Positions 1-38,337 of a stretch of DNA of 64,000 nucleotides are shown piece by piece; within the stretch, counting starts at the first letter, position 1; each line of letters starts with the position of its first letter. The position numbers were made by a program, and so were the translations under genes. The stretch is from the NCBI GenBank assembly GCA_903898785.1, contig CAIUGU010000038.1:1-64000 (forward strand), read 5' to 3'. Under the pieces are notes generated by a model that searched no databases, was not told where the DNA came from, and worked only from the letters and a program-made list of their open reading frames with translations. This stretch comes from an uncultured Pseudomonadota bacterium (GTDB taxonomy: Bacteria > Pseudomonadota > Gammaproteobacteria > Steroidobacterales > Steroidobacteraceae).

Positions 1-30
1 CGATCAATGAATAAATAGTCGTTTAATGGG

Positions 31-128
31 TTGCGCCTCTAATCCTCTGCTGCGTCGTTACGGACCTTGTCAATATTCCCGATATTGCCTGCGGTCCGAT
101 GCCTCGCAGCAGAGGATTGGAGACGCAA
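31..128. repeat. Long imperfect inverted repeat downstream of korB
   Basis: Bases 31-54 and 105-128 are near-perfect inverted repeats (22 of 24 positions pair), and a second inner pair, CGGACC at 61-66 with GGTCCG at 93-98, extends the stem. The structure lies about 30 bp beyond the korB stop codon, so in RNA from the leftward operon it would fold at the 3' end of the message. It has no clear T-run and no resemblance to the other repeat family in this window. It could be a transcription end structure or a mobile palindromic element. Confidence 0.6.
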
Positions 129-157
129 CGCGGTCGCGAAACCTGTGCAGAGGTTCC

Positions 158-1213
158 CTAGCGATAGCGCTGCAGGATCTTCTGCAATCCTGCGTTGCCG
201 GGGGACAGCTTTTCGTAAGGCATGCGGTTCATCGGCGTCGCGACGCTGCCCTGGACCTCATGGAATTCCGGACTCTGCTCGTCGATGTAGATCAAACCCG
301 TCACGTACTCCCCCTGCGCCTGCTTCGTACGGATGTACTCGAACGCCTTGCCGCGATCGGTCGGGTCGTAGGTGGGATCGAGTTTGCGCAGGACGACGCG
401 GCTGCCGTCATGCAACGTCACGGGCAATGCCTCGCCCGGTCCGTAGTCGGCCTTGATCTCGCTCCGCAACGGTACGAAGTCTGCGTGCACCAGCTCGTCG
501 TAGTGGTCGCGAACGAACTGGTAGCTCTTGGTGGAGCCCTCGTGATCGTTGAAGGTCACGCACGGCGACAGCACGTCCACCATCGCAAAGCCCGGGTGGC
601 TCAATGCGGCCTGCAACAGCGGTACGAGCTGTTCCTTGTCGCCCGAGAAGCTGCGCGCGATGAACGTGCAGCCCAGGCTCAAGGCCGCGAGGGCCGGATC
701 GATAGGCGGCTGCTGATTGACCTCGCCCTTCTTCGCTTTGGTACCGATATCCGCGGAGGCCGAGAACTGACCCTTGGTCAGGCCGTAAACGCCGTTGTTC
801 TCGCACACGTACAGCATGTTGATGTTGCGCCGGATTGCATGCGCGAACTGGCCGAAGCCGATCGTCAGCGAATCGCCGTCGCCGGACACGCCGATGTAGT
901 GGAGGTCGCGGTTGGCGGCGATCGCGCCCGTAGCGATGGAAGGCATGCGGCCGTGGACGCCATTGAATCCATGCGCGCCGCTGACGAAGTAGGCCGTGGT
1001 CTTCGACGAACAGCCGATGCCGGACAGCTTCACGATGTCCTGCGGCCGCAGCGACAGGCTCCAGACGGCCTCGATCAGCGCCGCCGTAATGGAGTCGTGG
1101 CCGCAGCCCGCGCACAGCGTCGACATGCCGCCTTCATAGTCGCGGCGCGTGAGCCCGAGCTCGTTGCGGGGCAGGCTCGGGTGGGCAACCTTCGGCTTGG
1201 TCATGAAGCTCAT
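158..1213 (-). CDS. korB: 2-oxoacid:ferredoxin oxidoreductase, beta subunit (KorB-like)
   Basis: This is the thiamine diphosphate-binding subunit of a 2-oxoacid:ferredoxin oxidoreductase, which decarboxylates a 2-oxoacid (most likely 2-oxoglutarate) and passes electrons to ferredoxin. At 351 aa it has the length usual for this KorB class. The N-terminal LCAGCGH carries cysteines typical of the family. GDGDS followed by ENNGVYGLTKGQ is the TPP/Mg motif (GDG..N), and GCSSKT lies ahead of it. It is the last gene of a leftward operon, 9 bp after korA. The substrate is inferred from the family. Pyruvate or an indole- or branched-chain oxoacid cannot be excluded. Confidence 0.93.
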   Translation of the reverse strand: MSFMTKPKVAHPSLPRNELGLTRRDYEGGMSTLCAGCGHDSITAALIEAVWSLSLRPQDIVKLSGIGCSSKTTAYFVSGAHGFNGVHGRMPSIATGAIAANRDLHYIGVSGDGDSLTIGFGQFAHAIRRNINMLYVCENNGVYGLTKGQFSASADIGTKAKKGEVNQQPPIDPALAALSLGCTFIARSFSGDKEQLVPLLQAALSHPGFAMVDVLSPCVTFNDHEGSTKSYQFVRDHYDELVHADFVPLRSEIKADYGPGEALPVTLHDGSRVVLRKLDPTYDPTDRGKAFEYIRTKQAQGEYVTGLIYIDEQSPEFHEVQGSVATPMNRMPYEKLSPGNAGLQKILQRYR

Positions 1214-1222
1214 GTCGGTTCC

Positions 1223-3091
1223 TCAAGGTTTGCCGGCAGTGGCTGTCCGGGGCGTGAGCGAATTCGCGAGCGAGGCCAGCACGCCGTCGACGATGCAATC
1301 GGATGAAATCGGCAGGCCACTGTAGTGCAGGATCGATTGCAGCTTGGCTTTGGCGACTGCCGTCTCCAGGATCAGCAGCGACTTGAGCTGGGCATCCCGA
1401 TTCTGCTCGACGACGAAGACCGTCTCGTGGGCAGCGAGGAAGTTCTCCACCTCCTCACCGAACGGGAAGCCGCGAACGCGCAGATAATCCGCATGGATGC
1501 CGCGCCGGCCCAGCATATCGAGCGCCTCGCGCACGGCGCCGTCGCAGCTGCCGAGCGACAGCAGGCCGATGTCGCGATTCATCGTCCCCACTGCGACGGC
1601 CTTGGGCACCAGCTTCTTCGCAGTTTCGAACTTCCTCTTGAGGCGGTCGACGACGATCTGGTAGTCCGTCGAGTCCTCGGTGTATCCGCCGAACTGGTTG
1701 TGCCCGGAGCCGCGGGTGAAGTAGGCCCCCTTGGGATGCGTGCCTGGCAGCGTGCGGGCGGCGATCGCATCGCCGTCCTTGTCGACATAGCGGTGGAACT
1801 TCGGCAGGGCCTCGATCTCGGCAGCGGTCAATACCTTGCCGCGATCCGGTTGCCAGGTGTCGTCCCACTTGAAGTCCCGGACCATCCAGTCGTTCATGCC
1901 GATGTCCAGGTCGAGCATGACGAACACGGGTGTCTGCAACCGCTCCGCGAGATCGAATCCCGTGGCGGCCATGTAGAAAGCTTCCTCCGGGTTGGCCGGG
2001 AACAGCATCACATGCCGCGTGTCGCCGTGGGATGCGTACGCGCACATCATTAGGTCGCACTGCTGCGTGCGCGTCGGCATGCCGGTGGACGGACCCACCC
2101 GCTGCACGTCGAAGATCACCGCCGGAATCTCGGTGTAGTAGGCGAGGCCGATGAACTCGTTCATCAGCGAAATGCCGGGGCCGCTCGTCGGCGTGAAAGC
2201 CCTGGCGCCATTCCAGGATGCGCCCACCACCATGCCGATGGCGGACAGCTCGTCCTCGGCCTGCATGATCACGTAGTTGTGCTTGCCGGTCTCGGGGTCG
2301 ACACGCAGCTTCCCGCAGAAGTTCTTGAAGGCATCCATCAACGACGTGGACGGCGTGATCGGATACCACGCGCCGACGGTGGCGCCGGCGAAGACGCAGC
2401 CCAGGCCCGCCGCCGTATTGCCGTCGATCAGGATGTGGCCCGCGGTCTTGTCCATGCGCTCCAGCCGGAACGGCAGGGGACACGCGAAGTGCTCCCTGGC
2501 ATAGGCATACCCGAGGTCGAACGCCTTGCTGTTGGAGTCAAGCAGCGCCGGCTTCGCGCCGTAACTCTCCTTGAGCAGCGCGCGGACCACGTCCATGTCG
2601 ATGTCCAGCAGTGCTGCCAGCACGCCTGCATACATGATGTTCTTGAGCAGGATGCGGTTGCGCACGCCGTTGAAGTTCTCGTTGGCGAGCTTCGCGAGCG
2701 GCACGCCGAGGACCGTGATGTCGTCGCGCTTGAGCAGCGTCGACCGCGGCCACGTCGAGTCGTAGATCAGGTAACCGCCCGCGCTCAGCTCCTTGATGTC
2801 GCGGGCATAGGTCTCCGCGTTCATCGCGACCATCAGGTCGACCCGGCCCGAGCGGGCGACGTACCCGTCGCGGCTGACGCGGATCTCATACCACGTCGGC
2901 ATGCCCTGGATGTTGGACGGGAAGTAGTTCTTGCCCATCACGGGCACGCCCATGCGGAACACCGACTTCATCAGCAGCGTGTTGGCGCTGGCGGAACCGG
3001 TGCCGTTGACGTTCGCCAGCTTGATGACGAAGTCGTTGATGCCGGCCTTGCGGGCTTCCCTCAGGCTGTCTTGCGCTGCGGATTCGACCAT
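1223..3091 (-). CDS. korA: 2-oxoacid:ferredoxin oxidoreductase, fused gamma-alpha subunit (KorA-like)
   Basis: This is the partner of KorB. The first ~190 residues match the gamma (POR_N-like) domain with NGTGSASAN, followed by the alpha pyrimidine-binding domain (GAWYPITPSTSLMD near residue 240) and a C-terminal transketolase-type domain with VVEQNRDAQLKSLL. The 622 aa length fits the fused KorA type. Its start overlaps the 3' end of the preceding oxidoreductase gene by 31 bp, and it ends 9 bp before korB, so the three genes are very probably one transcript. The family is oxygen-sensitive in many organisms, but aerobic versions exist. Confidence 0.93.
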   Translation of the reverse strand: MVESAAQDSLREARKAGINDFVIKLANVNGTGSASANTLLMKSVFRMGVPVMGKNYFPSNIQGMPTWYEIRVSRDGYVARSGRVDLMVAMNAETYARDIKELSAGGYLIYDSTWPRSTLLKRDDITVLGVPLAKLANENFNGVRNRILLKNIMYAGVLAALLDIDMDVVRALLKESYGAKPALLDSNSKAFDLGYAYAREHFACPLPFRLERMDKTAGHILIDGNTAAGLGCVFAGATVGAWYPITPSTSLMDAFKNFCGKLRVDPETGKHNYVIMQAEDELSAIGMVVGASWNGARAFTPTSGPGISLMNEFIGLAYYTEIPAVIFDVQRVGPSTGMPTRTQQCDLMMCAYASHGDTRHVMLFPANPEEAFYMAATGFDLAERLQTPVFVMLDLDIGMNDWMVRDFKWDDTWQPDRGKVLTAAEIEALPKFHRYVDKDGDAIAARTLPGTHPKGAYFTRGSGHNQFGGYTEDSTDYQIVVDRLKRKFETAKKLVPKAVAVGTMNRDIGLLSLGSCDGAVREALDMLGRRGIHADYLRVRGFPFGEEVENFLAAHETVFVVEQNRDAQLKSLLILETAVAKAKLQSILHYSGLPISSDCIVDGVLASLANSLTPRTATAGKP

Positions 3092-4869
3092 GGCTGTTTA
3101 CCGTCCGAGGCGTGCGGAATGTTGATTGTTGATTTCTGCATGTCCCACGCCGCCGTCGGGCAGCGCTCGGCGCACAGCCCGCAATGCACGCACAGGTCTT
3201 CGTCCTTCACCATGACCCGGCCGGTCATCTTGAGCGCGGCCGAGACATAGAGCGGCTGGCTCTTGTTGGCGGCGGGGGCCTTGAGGCGCGGACGGAGTTC
3301 TTCTTCGGTGCCGTTCGGCGTCATCGTCAGGCAGTCGACCGGGCAGATGTCGATGCAGGCATCGCATTCGATGCACAGCTTCGCGTCGAATACGGTCTGC
3401 ACGTCGCAATTGAGGCAGCGTTGCACCTCGGCCTCGGCCTGCTCGGGCGTGAAGCCCAGCTCCACCTCGATGTTCAGCTTCTTGAAGCGCTCCTTGAGGC
3501 TCACATGCGGCATCAGTCGCCGCTCGACCGGGTTGTAGTCGTTCTTGTACGACCACTCGTGGATGCCCATCTTGCGGCTCGCGAGCGTCACCATGGGAGG
3601 CGGGCGCTCGGCGACCGGCAACCCCTGCACGTACTGGTGGATCGAGATCGCGGCCTGATGGCCGTGCTCGACGGCCCAGATGATGTTCTTGGGACCGAAG
3701 GCCGCATCGCCGCCGAAGAAGACCTGCGGCAGCGTCGACTGGTGCGTGACGGGATCCACCTTGGGGACGTTCCACTTGTCGAACTCGAGGCCCAGGTCCC
3801 GCTCGATCCACGGAAAGGCGTTCTCCTGGCCGATGGCGAGGATCACGTCGTCGCAGGGGATCAGTACCTCGCCCTTCACGCGCTCGCCGGTGATCTGGCC
3901 GTCGACCAGGTCGTACTCCATCTGGTCGAAGAGCATGCCGGTCAGCTTGCCGCCCTGCGTGACGAAAGCCTTCGGCGCGTGGTTCACGACGATCTCGACG
4001 CTCTCTTCCTCGGCGTCGTCCAGTTCCCATTCGGAAGCCTTGAAGAAGCCCCGGGGCTTGCGGGCCATGACCTTCACGGACTTCGCGCCCATGCGCAGCG
4101 AAGAGCGGCAGCAGTCCATTGCGGTATTGCCTACCCCGATGATGAGCACCTTCTCGCCGATCGTCTTGATGTGCTCGAATGCAACCGATTCGAGCCAGTC
4201 GATGCCGATGTGGATGCGATCAGCGTCCGTCCTGCCAGGGATCTTGAGGTCCTTGCCCTTGGGTGCGCCGCTGCCGATGAAGACGGCGTCGAATTCGCCG
4301 GACTTGAGCAGTGCATCCAGGCTGGCGACGGGCGTACCGAGTTTCAGGTCCACGCCCATGTCGATGATGTAGCGGATCTCGTCGTCGAGCACGCCCGCGG
4401 GCAGGCGGAACGACGGAATGTTGGTGCGCATCAGGCCGCCTGCCTGGCCCCATTTCTCGAAGATCGTGACCTGGTAACCGAGCGGCATGAGGTCGTTCGC
4501 CACGGTCAGCGAAGCGGGCCCGGCGCCGATGCATGCAATGCGCTTGCCGTTCTTCTCGGGGGGCGCCTGCGGCAGCAAGTGCTCGACCGGGTCGCGGTGA
4601 TCGGCTGCGACGCGCTTCAGCCGGCAGATCGCGACCGGCTCGGCCTCGACACGTCCGCGGCGACATGCGGGCTCGCACGGGCGATCGCACACGCGGCCTA
4701 GGATGCCGGGAAAGACATTTGATTCGCGGTTGACGAGATAGGCTTCGGTGAAGCGGCCCATCGCAATGAGGCGGATGTATTCAGGTACATCCGTGTGCGC
4801 GGGGCATGCCCACTGGCAATCAACAACCCGGTGGTAGTGGTCCGGGTTGCGAACATCGGTCGGTTCCAC
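3061..4869 (-). CDS. GltD-like NAD(P)H/FAD oxidoreductase with two C-terminal 4Fe-4S clusters
   Basis: This 602 aa protein has the N-terminal cysteine-rich region of glutamate-synthase small subunits (CQWACPAHTDVPEY, then CDRPCEPACRRG). An FAD-binding Rossmann motif (GAGPAS near residue 118) and an NAD(P)-binding motif (GVGNTAMDCCRSS) follow. The C-terminus holds two ferredoxin clusters, CIECDACIDICP and CVHCGLCAERCP. It probably transfers electrons between ferredoxin reduced by KorAB and NAD(P). Three-gene Kor clusters with such a third subunit are known (KorC-type). It is the first gene of the operon, and 223 bp without a gene (4870-5092) separate it from the next operon and should hold its promoter. 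Confidence 0.88.
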   Translation of the reverse strand: MEPTDVRNPDHYHRVVDCQWACPAHTDVPEYIRLIAMGRFTEAYLVNRESNVFPGILGRVCDRPCEPACRRGRVEAEPVAICRLKRVAADHRDPVEHLLPQAPPEKNGKRIACIGAGPASLTVANDLMPLGYQVTIFEKWGQAGGLMRTNIPSFRLPAGVLDDEIRYIIDMGVDLKLGTPVASLDALLKSGEFDAVFIGSGAPKGKDLKIPGRTDADRIHIGIDWLESVAFEHIKTIGEKVLIIGVGNTAMDCCRSSLRMGAKSVKVMARKPRGFFKASEWELDDAEEESVEIVVNHAPKAFVTQGGKLTGMLFDQMEYDLVDGQITGERVKGEVLIPCDDVILAIGQENAFPWIERDLGLEFDKWNVPKVDPVTHQSTLPQVFFGGDAAFGPKNIIWAVEHGHQAAISIHQYVQGLPVAERPPPMVTLASRKMGIHEWSYKNDYNPVERRLMPHVSLKERFKKLNIEVELGFTPEQAEAEVQRCLNCDVQTVFDAKLCIECDACIDICPVDCLTMTPNGTEEELRPRLKAPAANKSQPLYVSAALKMTGRVMVKDEDLCVHCGLCAERCPTAAWDMQKSTINIPHASDGKQPWSNPQRKTA

Positions 4870-5092
4870 GTGCGCGTGGCCTTATTGTAAGGCCCCCACT
4901 CGATCATCCCCGCCGTACTCAACCTCAAGCGTGGGTGAAGACCGGTAAAGGCAAAACCCCCTGGCTGAAACGCCTGACGCACACGGGGTGCGCAACAGGC
5001 TCACGCGCAGACTAGCGGGGTTTGCGCGCCAAACGCAAGAGAGGAAAGCCGAAGTCGGGGCCGCTGTATTTGACGCACCTGCAGCAACGGAA

Positions 5093-5887
5093 TCAGCCGA
5101 ACCGGTACGACGCCATCGCGACGTCCATGACGTTGTCGAGAAAATCCCGACGACCCAGGTCATCCCCTGCAGCGCCCGCTGCGACCATCAATGGAATCAG
5201 GTGATCCTCGCGCGGATGGGACGAGCGCGCGGCGGGCGCCTGTTCCCAGGCCAGCAGCCGCGAGTTGCGTGTGGCGACGTTGGGCTCCGAAACCGCACTC
5301 GTCAGCCATTGCTCGAACGCCTGCGAGGCGGGTCCGCCGCCGCCGCGAAAGCCGCGCATGTTGTGATAGCTGAGTCCGCTGCCGACGATCAGGACGCCTT
5401 CGTCCCGAAGCGGCTGAAGGGCAGTGCCCGCGTGCAGATGGTCGCGGGGATCCAGCGAGTGCTTGATCGACAGCTGCACCACAGGGATCGTCGCCTGCGG
5501 ATACATCACGTAGAGCGGCACGAACGTCCCATGGTCGAAGCCGCGGGTGGCATCCGTGTCGCAGCGAATCCCTGCCTCCGTCAGCAACAGGCGCACACGC
5601 TCGGCGACGGCGGGCGATCCCGGTGCGGGATACCGGATGTGATAGGTGTGTTCCGGGAACCCCGAATAGTCGTACACCATCGGCGGTTGTGCCGACGTAC
5701 CGACGGTGAACTCCGCTGCCTCCCAGTGGCCCGTCACCGACAGGATGGCCTTCGGCGTGGAGGGCAGCGTCTGCGGCAGCCCGGCCAGCCACCGGGCCGA
5801 GCCTGCGAACATCGCCCGCATCTCGTCGATCCACGGCCAGGGGCCGCCGCCATGGGAGATGAAGAAGGTCGGAAGCCGGCTGGTCAT
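5093..5887 (-). CDS. DODA-type extradiol ring-cleavage dioxygenase
   Basis: This 264 aa protein of the 4,5-DOPA dioxygenase (YgiD/LigB-like) class is predicted to open a catechol ring using a single metal. The motif FFISHGGGP at the N-terminus and VTGHWE near residue 50 carry metal-ligand histidines. LSYHNMRG and HPREDHLIPL supply further histidines, and the C-terminus is typical of the family. I chose the ATG at 5887 because it overlaps the stop of the CHAT gene as ATGA and because upstream sequence in this frame looks non-coding. The coupling puts it in one operon with oxyR and the CHAT fusion. The physiological substrate is unknown. Confidence 0.85.
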   Translation of the reverse strand: MTSRLPTFFISHGGGPWPWIDEMRAMFAGSARWLAGLPQTLPSTPKAILSVTGHWEAAEFTVGTSAQPPMVYDYSGFPEHTYHIRYPAPGSPAVAERVRLLLTEAGIRCDTDATRGFDHGTFVPLYVMYPQATIPVVQLSIKHSLDPRDHLHAGTALQPLRDEGVLIVGSGLSYHNMRGFRGGGGPASQAFEQWLTSAVSEPNVATRNSRLLAWEQAPAARSSHPREDHLIPLMVAAGAAGDDLGRRDFLDNVMDVAMASYRFG

Positions 5888-8800
5888 CGGGGAGTCCGCG
5901 GCGGGGCCTTGAGCGTGAAGTCGTAGCTGCCGTAGTGGAGGTAGTCGGCCCAATCGACCGAACCGAGCTTGCGGACCGCTGCGCGCGAGGCGTTGAGGGC
6001 GGTGCCGACCGAGTCGCCGCGGACGAGTGCGCGATAGAACGTGGCCGCGAAGGTACCAGCCTCGTCGTCGCCGACGGGCCAGTACGTCCCGACATAGTTG
6101 GCCACGCCCCCGCGCAGGAAGGTTTCTGCGAGGCTCACGTTGCGACGCAGCCGCTCCTCCGCCTTGCCCGCAAAGCGCTGTCCCGCGCGCAGGCGGCCCA
6201 CTTCGCAGGCATTGAAGAAGGCGAGCGCCGGCAGTTCCGCGACGTTGGCGAGATCCGGGCCGGACAATACCTTCTGGTCCGCGCACACGATGCCGCTGCG
6301 CCCGGGCTGTTCCGCGTCAAAGAAGGCGTGGCCGGCGTAATGCAGGACGTCGTAGCGCCCGGAGCGGAACTCCTCGAGCAGGCGCTCGCGGCTGGCCTCG
6401 CTGCCCTCGATCCTGACGATGCGGATGTCCTTCCGCTTGCCGAGCAGCGATTGCAGTCGATCGCCTTCTGCCGCCGCGCCCTCGAGATCGCCGCTCGGAT
6501 TGACGACGAGCAGCACGTCGAGCGTGGCGTCCTGGCGCCGCGCTTCGCGCCAACGGGCGACCGACAGGTTCTCCGCCGCATAGCGGCGGCTCAACCCCGC
6601 ATCGGCAGCGGGGAAACGGCCGTTCACGCTCAGCGTCTCCCACGGATACGCCGCCGCTGCGTTGTCATGGACGACGACGAGGTGATGCGCCTTGACGGTA
6701 TCGAGTGCCTGCAGCACGTCCCGATGCAGCAGCATCGCGCCCAGCACTTCGCCGTAGCCGGACAGCCGCCTGGCGGTGAAGTCGCTGCCCTCGATGCGCC
6801 GCAGGTGCTCGTCGAGTTGCCGCTTCGGCACCTGCTTGGTTCCCGTCAGCACGGCCGCCTTGGAGCCGGAGGTCAGCACGGACGCGCGCAGCGCCAGCAC
6901 CTTGGGCTGCGAGGTGTCCTGCGACACGATGAGATACGCGAACCGCTGGGCCGCACCGCGACGGACGGGCACCACCTCAGCGGGTGCGGCCGTCGTGACC
7001 GTGGGCAGGTCGACCTCGTCGAACGACACCTCGATGTCGTCGAACAGCGGCGTGGCCGACAGCTTGAAGAGGGCATCCCGGAGGGCCGCGCACTTGGCGC
7101 GATCGAACTCCACCAGCGTGATCCGCCTCAGGCGACGGTCGGTATCGCTTTCCTTCAGCGCGCGGAAGTAGCCGCCCAGCTGGTTGGCCAGCGCAGCCTC
7201 GATGCTGACGCCGGAGCCGCCGCCGAGCAGCACCGTCGCGAACTCGTCGACATGCGTGCGCGCAAACGTGCGGACGACATTCCCGGCGACGAACGCCTGT
7301 GCATCGGCATCGAAGCGGTCGAAGTCGCCGAGTCCTGCGAGCAACACCAGCTCCGCGCCGAGACGACTGCGTGCGGTCGGCAACACGAACACTTCGCCGC
7401 GATTTCCCGAGAACATGCGTCGCAGCGTGAACTCCTTGATCGCGCCGCCGAGGCGCTTGTCGATGGCGGCCGCCGCACCGCCGGGTTCGACGCCGCGGAA
7501 CACGCCCAGCACGATCGCCTCCGACTGCACTTCCGTGATGCTGCCGCAGGCGAGGCGGATCTCGAGCGTACGGCGACGCTGCTGCGCATCGATCAGGCGT
7601 GGTTGCGGCGCAGCCGGAGCTCGCGCGGGTTCGGCCGCGCGGCCGAGGAATTCCGGCGAGATCACCGGTTCCAGGAACCTGCGGCGCGACTCCAGCGACA
7701 GGTCCGTCCAGCGGATCTTGCCTTTCACCCGCTGGCGCAACACGGAGTCACGGACCTTGCCGACGACCACGCGACGCTTGCGCGACACCGTGGACGGCAG
7801 CTGCTTCGTGTCATTGGTCTTGAGCAGGTCCACGACGGCTGCGGCCACGAGGGTGCTGTTCGTGAGTCCGCCGTGCGTTTCCTCGGCGAACCAGGTCCGG
7901 GCTTTGGGCCATTCGGCAAGCGCCCGCGGCACGGTGCCATCGCCTTCCAGACCCAGCGTGTACTCGAAGGAGTCCTTCACCCGACGTGCGCCGACGACCG
8001 TTTCCTGGTTCACGCCCATGATCAGGCAGCAGCGTTCGTCGGCAGGGGCGAGTCCGTCGCGCACGCGACGCGCTTCCTCCAGCAGCGCAGCGTCCGGTGC
8101 CAGGCCATCGCGTGGCCACGAGCGCGGATCGAAGAAGTCGAGGGCGGGATGGCGCTCGGGGGCCGGCAGCATCTGGTAAAGGCCGGGCAGCGTGCGGAAC
8201 ACTTTCTCTGCCAGTTGTTCGGCCGTGTGGTGCAGGTCGAGCGCGGCGATCTTGCGGACCGTCGGATAAGTGGCGCGCAACGCCTGCACGGGAGCGAACG
8301 AGCCGTAGTTCGGCGTGCCGAGCTGGACGAGCTGCGCGATCCGCTTGCTGCCCGGACCGTTCAGCGCCGCGCGCGCGACCAGCCCTCCCATGCTGTGTGC
8401 GACGAGCCGTACCGAGGTCGCCCGTTCGCCGGCAATTCGCTCGCCGAGTTCCTTGCCCAGGACGTCGAGCCCGAGGCGCCAGTCGAACGGATGGAAGCTC
8501 GCGTCGAAGCCGGCAAGCTGCAGCGACAGCTTCAGCTTGAGGTAGCCGAACAGCATGACGCCGAGAGGCTGCAGTTTCCGGCCACGCGGCAGGGCCAGGT
8601 CCGTCAGATTGCCCGCGATCACCTCGACCGGATCCAGCCACAGCACGTCGTCGTTGACGCGGCCGGGCGTGCCGATCTTCGAGCCCATGATGCCGGGCAG
8701 GATCAGTACCCGCGGCCCGCCGCGAACACGCCGCGTGGCGACTGCCTCCGCGAGCTGCCGCAGTTCGCGATACTCCGCCTCGCCGAAGTTGGCCTCAAGG

Positions 8801-13450: not shown

Positions 13451-13451
13451 A

Positions 13452-13674
13452 CCGGCCGACTCTGTCGGCAAGGGGGCCTGCCGGCAAGTGGGCCGACTCT
13501 GTCGGCAGGTAGGCCTGCCGGCAGGTCAGAGCTGATCATCCGGTAGCGAAGCGTCGTTGAGCGTCTGGTTCTCGCGCAGAGCCATGGGAAGCTACTGAGC
13601 CTCTGGCTTGCCGGAGGCCTACTTGGCGCACGCCCTACCTGCCGGCAGGCCCCCTTGCCGGCAAGGCCGGCCGG
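13452..13674. repeat. Nested-hairpin repeat, copy 1
   Basis: This is a 223 bp member of the dispersed repeat family described in the findings. It opens with CCGGCCGACTCTGTCGGC, itself a small hairpin, followed by AAGGGGGCCTGCCGGCAAG. The far arm carries the reverse complement of the second block but a different small hairpin, GCCGGC-AAG-GCCGGC, at the end. The inner boundaries are GGTCAGA and TCTGGC around a core of about 70 bp. It sits directly after the ybiT stop and may serve as its 3' end structure. Confidence 0.85.
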
Positions 13675-13691
13675 TCACCTCATTTATCGCG

Positions 13692-20530: not shown

Positions 20531-20708
20531 GGCTTCCCTCGCCGAGTGCGCTGTTGTTCTGGTTTGACAGACTGATACTAACGGTAAACACGGCCAGGCG
20601 TTGACACGGAGGAGGCACGTGGGAGCCCACCGGCCAGCTTCGTCGGTTTACGCCCTGGCCGCAGGGTGCAGGGTGCTGGCTGCAAACGGTGCCCAGAAGA
20701 ATGAGCGA

Positions 20709-20868
20709 CCGGCCGACTCTGTCGGCGAGGGGGCCTACCGGCGAATGGCCTTTCGGCGGGTCAGAGGCAAGACCACAGTCCCATTGTCTTCACTCTGGCT
20801 CGACGGCAGTCCGTTCGCCAACGGAGTTGGCCACTCGCCGGTAGGCCCCCTCGCCGACAGAGTCGGCC
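20709..20868. repeat. Nested-hairpin repeat, copy 3
   Basis: A 160 bp copy in the 341 bp gap between the DUF1800 start and the CDGSH stop; it ends 3 bp before that stop codon. The outer arms GGCCGACTCTGTCGGC + GAGGGGGCCTACCGGCGA pair perfectly. The right arm retains a second hairpin, GCCAAC-GGA-GTTGGC, which the left arm lacks, so this copy is asymmetric. The inner boundaries are GGTCAGAG and CTCTGGC. Confidence 0.85.
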
Positions 20869-20871
20869 TGT

Positions 20872-21126
20872 CTATTCCTCCTCGGGCGCCAGCCCGCGAT
20901 GGCTCCCATCACACAGCGGCGCCGTGGCCGTGTGCTTGCACGCGCAGAACCAGACCTGTCCGGTCTGCTCGGCGACGTACTTCAGGGGCTTGAACTGCGT
21001 GGGGTTGTGGGTGCCGTCGCAGAAGGGCTGGCGGGTGCTGCGGCCGCAGGTGCACCACCAGTAGGTACGGCCTGCGACGACGTCCACGCCGATCGGGCTG
21101 CGGTCTGCAATCACGGGGTCGGTCAT
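20872..21126 (-). CDS. Two-cluster CDGSH iron-sulfur protein
   Basis: An 84 aa protein with two complete CDGSH motifs of the form C-x-C-x8-C-x3-H: Cys25/Cys27/Cys36/His40 and Cys61/Cys63/Cys72/His76. Each should hold a redox-active 2Fe-2S cluster, as in the small bacterial mitoNEET relatives. The role is probably redox or iron-sulfur homeostasis. The start at 21126 gives MTDPVIADRSP; the longer frame upstream is a basic, non-conserved stretch. It lies 31 bp after the lipoprotein gene and may be in the same operon. Confidence 0.9.
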   Translation of the reverse strand: MTDPVIADRSPIGVDVVAGRTYWWCTCGRSTRQPFCDGTHNPTQFKPLKYVAEQTGQVWFCACKHTATAPLCDGSHRGLAPEEE

Positions 21127-31451: not shown

Positions 31452-32126
31452 ATGAAGATCCTCATCGCCGACGACGACAGCGACCTGCTGGGCCTGATCG
31501 GCTTCACGCTGACGCAGGCCGGCTATCTCGTCGTGAAGGCGATCGACGGACCGTCTGCCATCCGCGCCTTTGAGGCCGAGCAACCCGACATCATCGTGCT
31601 CGACATCAACATGCCGGGCGCCAGCGGCTTCCAGGTCTGCGAAGCGGTGCGCCAGAAATCGCGCGTGCCGATCATGATGCTCACCGCGCGCGGCGAGGAA
31701 GAGGATCTCGTGCGCGCACTCGAACTCGGTGCCGATGACTACCTGACGAAGCCCTTCAGTCCCCGCACGTTGCTGGCGAGAGTGAAGGCCCTGCTGCGCC
31801 GTGCCGGTGTCGATACGGCAACGCCGCTCGCCGCCGGCCGCATGAAGCTCGACGTAGATGAGCACACGGTCCAGGTAGGCGAGGGCGAGCCGATCCGCCT
31901 CACGAAGCTCGAACTGCGCTTGCTGCAGATGCTGCTCGCGAATTCCGGACACACCGTCAGTTCAGATCGGCTGCTGATGCAGGTCTGGGGACATCGCGGC
32001 GCCGGCGATCGCCAGCTCCTGAAGCAGCTCGTGCATCGGCTGCGCCACAAGATCGAACTCGATCCCGCCGTGCCGCAGCTGTTGCAGACGGCGCCGGGGG
32101 CGGGGTATCGGCTAATCGTTGATTAG
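31452..32126 (+). CDS. OmpR/PhoB-type response regulator
   Basis: A 224 aa response regulator. The receiver domain has phospho-acceptor Asp51 in VLDINMPG, the acidic pair ADDD near the N-terminus and the conserved Thr/Lys in MLTARGEE and DYLTKPFSP. The C-terminal winged helix (residues ~130-224) ends GAGYRLIVD, typical of the PhoB class. It lies 153 bp after the histidine kinase and is its likely partner. A nested-hairpin repeat begins 17 bp after its stop. Confidence 0.93.
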   Translation: MKILIADDDSDLLGLIGFTLTQAGYLVVKAIDGPSAIRAFEAEQPDIIVLDINMPGASGFQVCEAVRQKSRVPIMMLTARGEEEDLVRALELGADDYLTKPFSPRTLLARVKALLRRAGVDTATPLAAGRMKLDVDEHTVQVGEGEPIRLTKLELRLLQMLLANSGHTVSSDRLLMQVWGHRGAGDRQLLKQLVHRLRHKIELDPAVPQLLQTAPGAGYRLIVD

Positions 32127-32143
32127 CCAGCGCTGCTGCTGGA

Positions 32144-32305
32144 CCGGCCAACTCTGTTGGCAAGGGGGCCTACCGGCAAGTAGGCCGACTTCGTCGGCAA
32201 GGGGGCTGATCCTGTCAGCAGGCCAGATCTGACCTGACGGTAGTCCTACCTGTCGCGTCCGCGACCTTCCTGCCGGTAGGCCCCCTTGCCAACAGAGTTG
32301 GCCGG
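32144..32305. repeat. Nested-hairpin repeat, copy 4 (no core)
   Basis: A 162 bp copy between two convergent genes. The outer 35 bases of each arm (starting CCGGCCAACTCTGTTGGC) pair perfectly. The second hairpin is GCCGAC-TTC-GTCGGC in the left arm and a different one, GTCGCG-TCC-GCGAC, in the right arm. The two inner boundaries meet directly as CCAGA|TCTGAC at about 32223-32232, so this copy shows the element without a core insert. Confidence 0.9.
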
Positions 32306-32315
32306 TCTGGCTTTG

Positions 32316-37722: not shown

Positions 37723-38151
37723 ATGAGCGATCCCAAGGACCCCAAGGACAAGAAGTCCCCGCCCGGAGCGCCGCCTGCCGCAAGCACGAACGAGAAGAGT
37801 TCGGGTCGCGTTGCATTCGATGCGCGGGGCAATCCCGTCTGGGAGTGGCAGACGTCCACTGGCGTGTTTGGCCGCGAGGTGAGCACGCAGCGGCTCAAGA
37901 AGCTGGAGGCGAAGGAACTCGCCATCGTCGACACGCCGCCGACCGCACCCCAGAAGAAGAAAGGGTTCGAACTGTCGCTCGACGAGCCGCAGATGCCCAA
38001 TCGCGAAACGGGCTTCAACCCCTACAACAGCGCGCCGGCTCCCAAGGCCAAGGTCGCGGACGAACCCCGCAAGTCGCCCACCGACCTCCACAAGCTGGAC
38101 GCGTGGATCAAGATGAAGAAGGGGTTGGCGGAGAAGGACAAGAAGAAGTAG
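37723..38151 (+). CDS. Hypothetical lysine- and proline-rich protein
   Basis: A 142 aa hydrophilic protein starting MSDPKDPKDKKSPPG; an ATG 48 bp upstream in frame is also possible. The central block FDARGNPVWEWQTSTGVFGREVSTQRLKKLE looks conserved-protein-like, and the tail NPYNSAP...HKLDAWIKMKKGL is followed by a lysine run. I see no membrane segment or enzyme motif. Proteins of this type are common but uncharacterised in proteobacteria. It is divergent from the ABC exporter. Confidence 0.7.
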   Translation: MSDPKDPKDKKSPPGAPPAASTNEKSSGRVAFDARGNPVWEWQTSTGVFGREVSTQRLKKLEAKELAIVDTPPTAPQKKKGFELSLDEPQMPNRETGFNPYNSAPAPKAKVADEPRKSPTDLHKLDAWIKMKKGLAEKDKKK

Positions 38152-38337
38152 GCCACTCTGTAAGGCAGGGGCTTACGCCAAGTAGGGCTGCCGCCAAGCC
38201 AGAATCGACGGCCAGACTCGACTGGGCCGAATTCATTTAACGCCGCCCTTACCATCGCTCGTACTCCGCCTCTGACTTGGCGGCAGCCCTACTTGTCGGA
38301 GACCTACTTGGCGCAGCCCCGCTTGGCGGCAGCCCTT
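38151..38337. repeat. Nested-hairpin repeat, copy 5 (divergent subtype)
   Basis: A 187 bp divergent copy filling the gap between two convergent genes. A perfect 19-base inverted repeat, starting AAGTAGGGCTGCCGCCAAG at 38180-38198 and matched at 38276-38294, forms the main stem. The inner boundaries AGCCAGA and TCTGACTT match those of the other copies. The outer modules (GGCCACTCTGTAAGGC, then CTTGGCGGCAGCCCTT) are decayed or rearranged. It starts at the last base of one gene and ends 8 bp before the other. Confidence 0.75.

Follow-up and report, generated by a model that had tools for sequence, protein, structure and literature searches.

A scattered family of gene-free DNA hairpin repeats with a dispensable core in one genus of uncultured bacteria

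Among bacterial repeats the REP doublets have less conserved spacers, carry compensatory changes and fold into clovers (Bertels and Rainey 2011, PMC3116915), and REP dimers in which the spacer is 1-2 bp long or deleted have already been described (Di Nocera 2013, PMC3733652). Here we analyse a stretch of 64,000 nucleotides (the window) from an uncultured member of the Steroidobacteraceae, in which several copies of a nested inverted repeat are found. They belong to a family of scattered, gene-free DNA hairpin repeats, about thirty in number, which is restricted to a single genus of uncultured bacteria. With a probability of roughly 0.6, we read it as an old, genus-restricted, non-coding and non-autonomous family of REP/REPIN-like hairpin repeats whose copies once spread and whose core is dispensable. 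The genome that holds the window (G000, a MAG of 3.15 Mb, 78% complete) was compared with that of a single congener (G001, the MAG Loclat_bin-08192).

Copy 4 and the other copies in the window

The repeat on which the original prediction centred, copy 4, is intergenic and lies between convergent genes, 15 bp past the stop codon of a response-regulator gene and 8 bp from that of the gene opposite. Its parts and neighbours are as follows.

31452-32126, plus strand: upstream neighbour, outside the element; OmpR-type response regulator
32142-32307, no strand assigned: copy 4, nested inverted repeat without a core
32142-32187, plus strand: outer left arm, cap module GACCGGCCAACTCTGTTGGC and GGCCTACCGGCAAG module; model R1 match at 32143-32185, 64.5 bits
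32188-32227, plus strand: inner left arm, micro-hairpin modules, last bases CCAGA
32223-32233, plus strand: junction CCAGA/TCTGAC, core length 0; letters CCAGATCTGAC
32228-32261, minus strand: inner right arm, with modules differing from those of the inner left arm
32262-32307, minus strand: outer right arm; R1 match at 32264-32306, 60.4 bits
32316-32837, minus strand: downstream neighbour, outside the element; protein with a CxxCH-like motif and no Pfam match

The inverted repeat is 2 bases wider on each side than was originally given, and its outer arms are complementary at 43 of 46 positions. The claim that it is coreless, with CCAGA and TCTGAC abutting, was confirmed at 32223-32233. There is no pairing between the inner parts of the arms; their modules differ and each folds on itself, and the whole takes the shape of a 37-bp outer stem topped by a clover of micro-hairpins. 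Folded as DNA, copy 4 reaches -69.7 kcal/mol compared with -29.8 +/- 3.2 for its shuffles (z = -12.7), none of 200 shuffles being as good.

The window holds four further copies, one of them missing from the original prediction.

13451-13675, no strand assigned: family copy with a 71-nt core, beginning immediately after a stop codon
16022-16218, no strand assigned: family copy with a 30-nt core, of the AAATGG-spacer type
20707-20872, no strand assigned: family copy (copy 3) with a 28-nt core
38150-38330, no strand assigned: fifth family copy, newly found, also delimited as 38176-38298, with a 67-nt core

That every copy other than copy 4 carries a core is therefore right within the window, although it does not extend to the genome as a whole. 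Just upstream of copy 3, at about 20621-20700, is a lone cap module, ACCGGCCAGCTTCGTCGGTTTACGCCCTGGCCGCAGGG, in which a longer hairpin replaces the usual loop; a similar loop insert (CCCTGGTTAGGG or CCCTGCGGCCAGGG) is found again in other copies and its presence varies between the C246 orthologues. A separate inverted repeat at 30-129 of the window (GTTGCGCCTCTAATCCTCTGCTGCG...) matches part of a nested palindrome of about 300 bp at C142:10376-10667 of G000, which has the ends GGAACCTCTGATT and is 92% identical to a G001 copy at C24:116566-116853. This is a second palindrome family, apparently a younger one.

Modules, cores and orthologous sites

Each arm is a string of micro-hairpin modules of about 17-20 nt. 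The outer cap has the pattern (R)CCGGC-xyz-CTnnG-z'y'x'-GC and the modules after it the pattern GNCTnnCGN'CA(A/G)G; AAGTA, AAGGG and AAATG are among the spacers, and the arm terminates in CAGA. Positions N and N' of the modules form Watson-Crick pairs in 172 of 185 cases (93%), with all four types of pair present and almost no G-T intermediates. When the cap and next module were modelled together, 96.5% of cells were paired, whereas shuffles reached 84.0% and slid controls no more than 56.6%, and 70 cells had changed on both sides as against 4 on one side. The long stems have a median pairing of about 84%, and their mismatches, 117 of them G-T and 115 A-C, show no strand bias. That wobble intermediates are nearly absent, and that G-T and A-C mismatches are equal in number, points to a constraint that acts on DNA hairpins rather than on RNA, and RNA-level selection on the long stem was rejected because the mismatches are without strand bias.

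Measurable cores numbered 24, of which 18 are 15-91 nt long and 6 only 0-1 bp (copy 4, C246:24507, the three copies measured on C113, and a C39 copy), and this supports the prediction that the core is optional. It had also been predicted that the cores are unrelated to each other. This is true between loci, where 120 pairs gave a mean score of 12.2 compared with 11.8 for shuffled sequences, but not between orthologues, since at C131 and C275 the homology of the G000 and G001 cores is clear. At window site 1 the orthologous cores gave a marginal score, with 12 of 500 shuffles as high, and core alignment detected no homology at C175 or at the second and third window sites. The orthologue of copy 4 in G001 has a 31-nt core, and the C246 element is practically coreless in both genomes. 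As cores are unrelated across loci and homologous at some orthologous sites, the core is a locus-bound, fast-changing spacer, best read as dispensable and without conserved information. Loop loss looks like a recurrent variant of hairpin repeats and not like a recombination site, and a missing loop, being a recurrent state (6 of 24), is not by itself evidence of excision.

Sixteen sites were compared between G000 and G001: window sites 1-4, C131, C217, C246, C275, C49, C113:5322, C156, C36, C69, two on C142, and C175. Empty sites in relatives had been part of the original prediction; at 15 of the 16 G001 has an element or what can be recognised as the remnant of one, and only C36 is without, having in its place a short unrelated G+C-rich stretch with no clean footprint. 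The insertion sites that the two genomes share are old. That only one congener site looks empty weighs against the REP/REPIN-like reading, in which copies would have moved. The arms at common sites diverge far more than most flanking genes, which are mostly 80-90% identical, and spacer types often differ. At C131 both genomes have one element nested in the core of a second. Stem pairs followed from G000 to G001 were unchanged in 237 cases, changed with pairing kept in 14, broken on one side in 67 and broken on both in 13, a count biased towards breakage in G001 as the pairs were defined on the G000 fold. These broken pairs indicate that elements decay after insertion, and the breakage fits a constraint that acted during spread and was followed by decay.

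Distribution and the search for a mobiliser

BLAST and pattern searches located some 25-30 loci in G000 and around twenty in G001, and a covariance model of the outer cap gave at least 33 matches in G000 and at least 28 in G001, with up to 33 candidates scored per genome; the copy number given here rests on searches limited in this way. In 194 other relatives the same model found no more than isolated weak matches. A single cap-model match (E = 1.6e-8) at C7:1098-1146 of G161, a genome from another family of the order, is either a horizontal copy or a misbinned contig. A family copy is also present on the SJ778 contig (L142, JADZDL010000518.1), which is filed under Planctomycetota. Horizontal spread to that phylum was rejected because the contig matches the window's genus at the DNA level (90% identity to G000 and 82% to G001); judged by this identity, the contig most likely comes from a third species of the genus and was misbinned, a probable binning error in a public MAG. 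A viral or plasmid origin was also rejected, viral contigs having no match to the exact cap pattern and plasmids no BLAST match, as was a known RNA family, there being no Rfam match.

The copies are intergenic and, by rough gene calls, occupy convergent, tandem and divergent gaps. Elements also occur in tandem or within another element's core, and single arms without a partner exist at C142:42108 and its orthologue. On C113 of G000 (1-7961, L037) there are four elements in 6 kb, each between neighbouring genes, and the three that were measured have a 1-bp core and the inner end TTCAGAnTCTGGCTTGCC in common; this cluster is a subfamily or a local duplication. On C143 (L041:1061-1520) three tandem left arms with linkers of 15-20 nt are accompanied by one clear right arm.

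The comparison with elements mobilised by a REP-type transposase, made in the original prediction, stands only in part: the likeness to REP-type hairpin repeats is real, but no link to the resident TnpA-REP-like Y1 enzymes was found. G000 has a single Y1 (HUH) transposase gene, at C69:5283, which is flanked by its own GGGGACATTCC repeats. These resemble the repeats of TIR-associated tyrosine transposases (GGGGWSAS motif) and are unrelated to the hairpin family, and a link was rejected because the flanking repeats differ, although in an assembly 78% complete the gene of the relevant enzyme may be absent. No family copies were present in the examined flanks of the two Y1 genes of G001. For the three Y1 genes of both genomes, G000 being incomplete, there are therefore no copies flanking a RAYT (Y1) gene of the kind expected of REP/REPIN repeats. 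Nor was there an invariant GTAG or CGTC tag, since GTAG precedes 33 of 160 modules and GGGG 32 of 160. The copies are nevertheless repetitive, extragenic and palindromic, occur as inverted pairs and have a variable or absent spacer. We call the family REP/REPIN-like on the grounds that its anatomy matches REP doublets, yet it fails in the tag and the RAYT association.

Origin of the family and comparison with known repeats

In each element two arrays of small hairpin modules are set head to head about a spacer, the core, that can be lost. If the REP/REPIN-like reading holds, copies may have spread in the past by way of a single-stranded DNA hairpin recognised in trans by an enzyme that is no longer evident, and this enzyme would have kept the hairpins perfect while the copies moved. 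Resident copies would then have drifted and swapped or lost modules, and spacers could have been lost or gained as replication slipped or switched template across the stem. On this view copy 4 would represent a loop-deleted or abutting arm pair rather than the product of an excision.

It is possible, but unlikely, that the repeats are instead a modular hairpin class independent of REPs, whose micro-hairpins and arms would be maintained as palindromes, at the level of the DNA, by an activity other than a Y1 transposase that processes hairpins or switches templates. At fixed intergenic sites such arms would lengthen, shorten and be rewritten in place. A host function appears distinctly unlikely. 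Copies that act as bidirectional transcription terminators or mRNA 3' stabilisers, with the RNA hairpin under selection, would agree with the positions conserved between species and with the several copies, copy 4 included, that sit straight after stop codons or between convergent genes; 10 of 31 classified copies are in convergent gaps against 47 of 251 background gaps, a weak excess obtained with a home-made ORF heuristic. However, G-U-compatible mismatches on the transcribed strand are not in clear excess (62 against 54), some copies are in divergent gaps, the stems decay between species and match nothing in Rfam, and at copy 4 there is no run of T after 32307 and no run of A before 32142, where an intrinsic terminator would have a T tract after its G+C stem.

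We consider it improbable that the family is a MITE, with terminal repeats GGAGCRACCGGC...GCCGGTYGCTCC and an arbitrary interior, that a DDE transposase moved by cut and paste. In its favour, the outer ends are common to copies in both orientations, elements occur within the cores of others and one site is apparently empty. The MITE comparison had been proposed originally, but the search for target-site duplications detected none (mean shared word 3.31 compared with 3.38 shuffled), the interiors are unrelated, module number varies between arms, and viral contigs and plasmids yielded no such matches. Equally hard to accept as a complete account, and if anything harder, is that replication template switching makes the palindromes and mends them on the spot, without any transposition. 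Hairpins are known to be created and restored by template switching (PMC8794818), which would explain the scarcity of one-sided intermediates (4 cells against 70 two-sided), the symmetric changes in both arms at C246/C88, and the extra right arm of the SJ778 copy, which is a mirror image of the left arm, AGCGGAGGG flank included, and is suggestive only. The same cap at about 30 unrelated loci requires dispersal, however, and pairing in the stems has a median of only about 84%; template switching is more likely to be a contributor than the whole story. Finally, it is very improbable that cores are cassettes bounded by cleavage or recombination points at CCAGA/TCTGG, after the manner of integrons or DNA invertases, in spite of the sharp boundary motifs and the presence or absence of cores. 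Nothing was found in support of the originally proposed cleavage or recombination points, no association with a recombinase came to notice, the cores are at most 91 nt long without common features, and at C131 and C275 they are inherited with the locus.

The REP/REPIN-like family lets the origin and persistence of long bacterial palindromes be tested in nature. One and the same intergenic site is open to comparison across species, with modules that covary almost without wobble intermediates and stems that decay later, and the family distinguishes a constraint at the time of spread from a function that follows insertion.

Foldback (FB) elements of Drosophila have long inverted arms of short subrepeats and a middle that is variable or missing; they are eukaryotic and of kilobase scale, and their likeness to the present family is a structural analogy only. 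Among bacterial systems, the TIRtrons, or TIR-associated tyrosine transposases (PMC3733652), have flanking repeats of the kind seen at the only Y1 gene of G000, and the repeats studied here are unrelated to them. The GTAG- and CGTC-tagged REP dimers in HH/TT arrangement (Di Nocera 2013, PMC3733652) are closer: their spacers, unrelated in sequence, are 1-2 bp, deleted or 20-100 bp long, many copies lie between convergent or tandem genes, and some families have no dedicated transposase. Unlike them, the present family has no invariant tag and is built of modules of 17-20 nt with stems of 3-6 bp. With the REPINs and REP doublets of Pseudomonas fluorescens and other bacteria (Bertels and Rainey 2011, PMC3116915) it shares the inverted palindromic pair, the less conserved spacer, compensatory changes, a long hairpin or clover fold, intergenic location, tandem clusters, and singlets as decayed remnants. 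In contrast to REPINs, an arm has not one REP but about 3-5 modules in an array, copies number tens and not hundreds, and neither an associated RAYT gene nor movement was seen. The arrays of modules and the missing cognate transposase set the family apart as a variant of REP/REPIN-like repeats.
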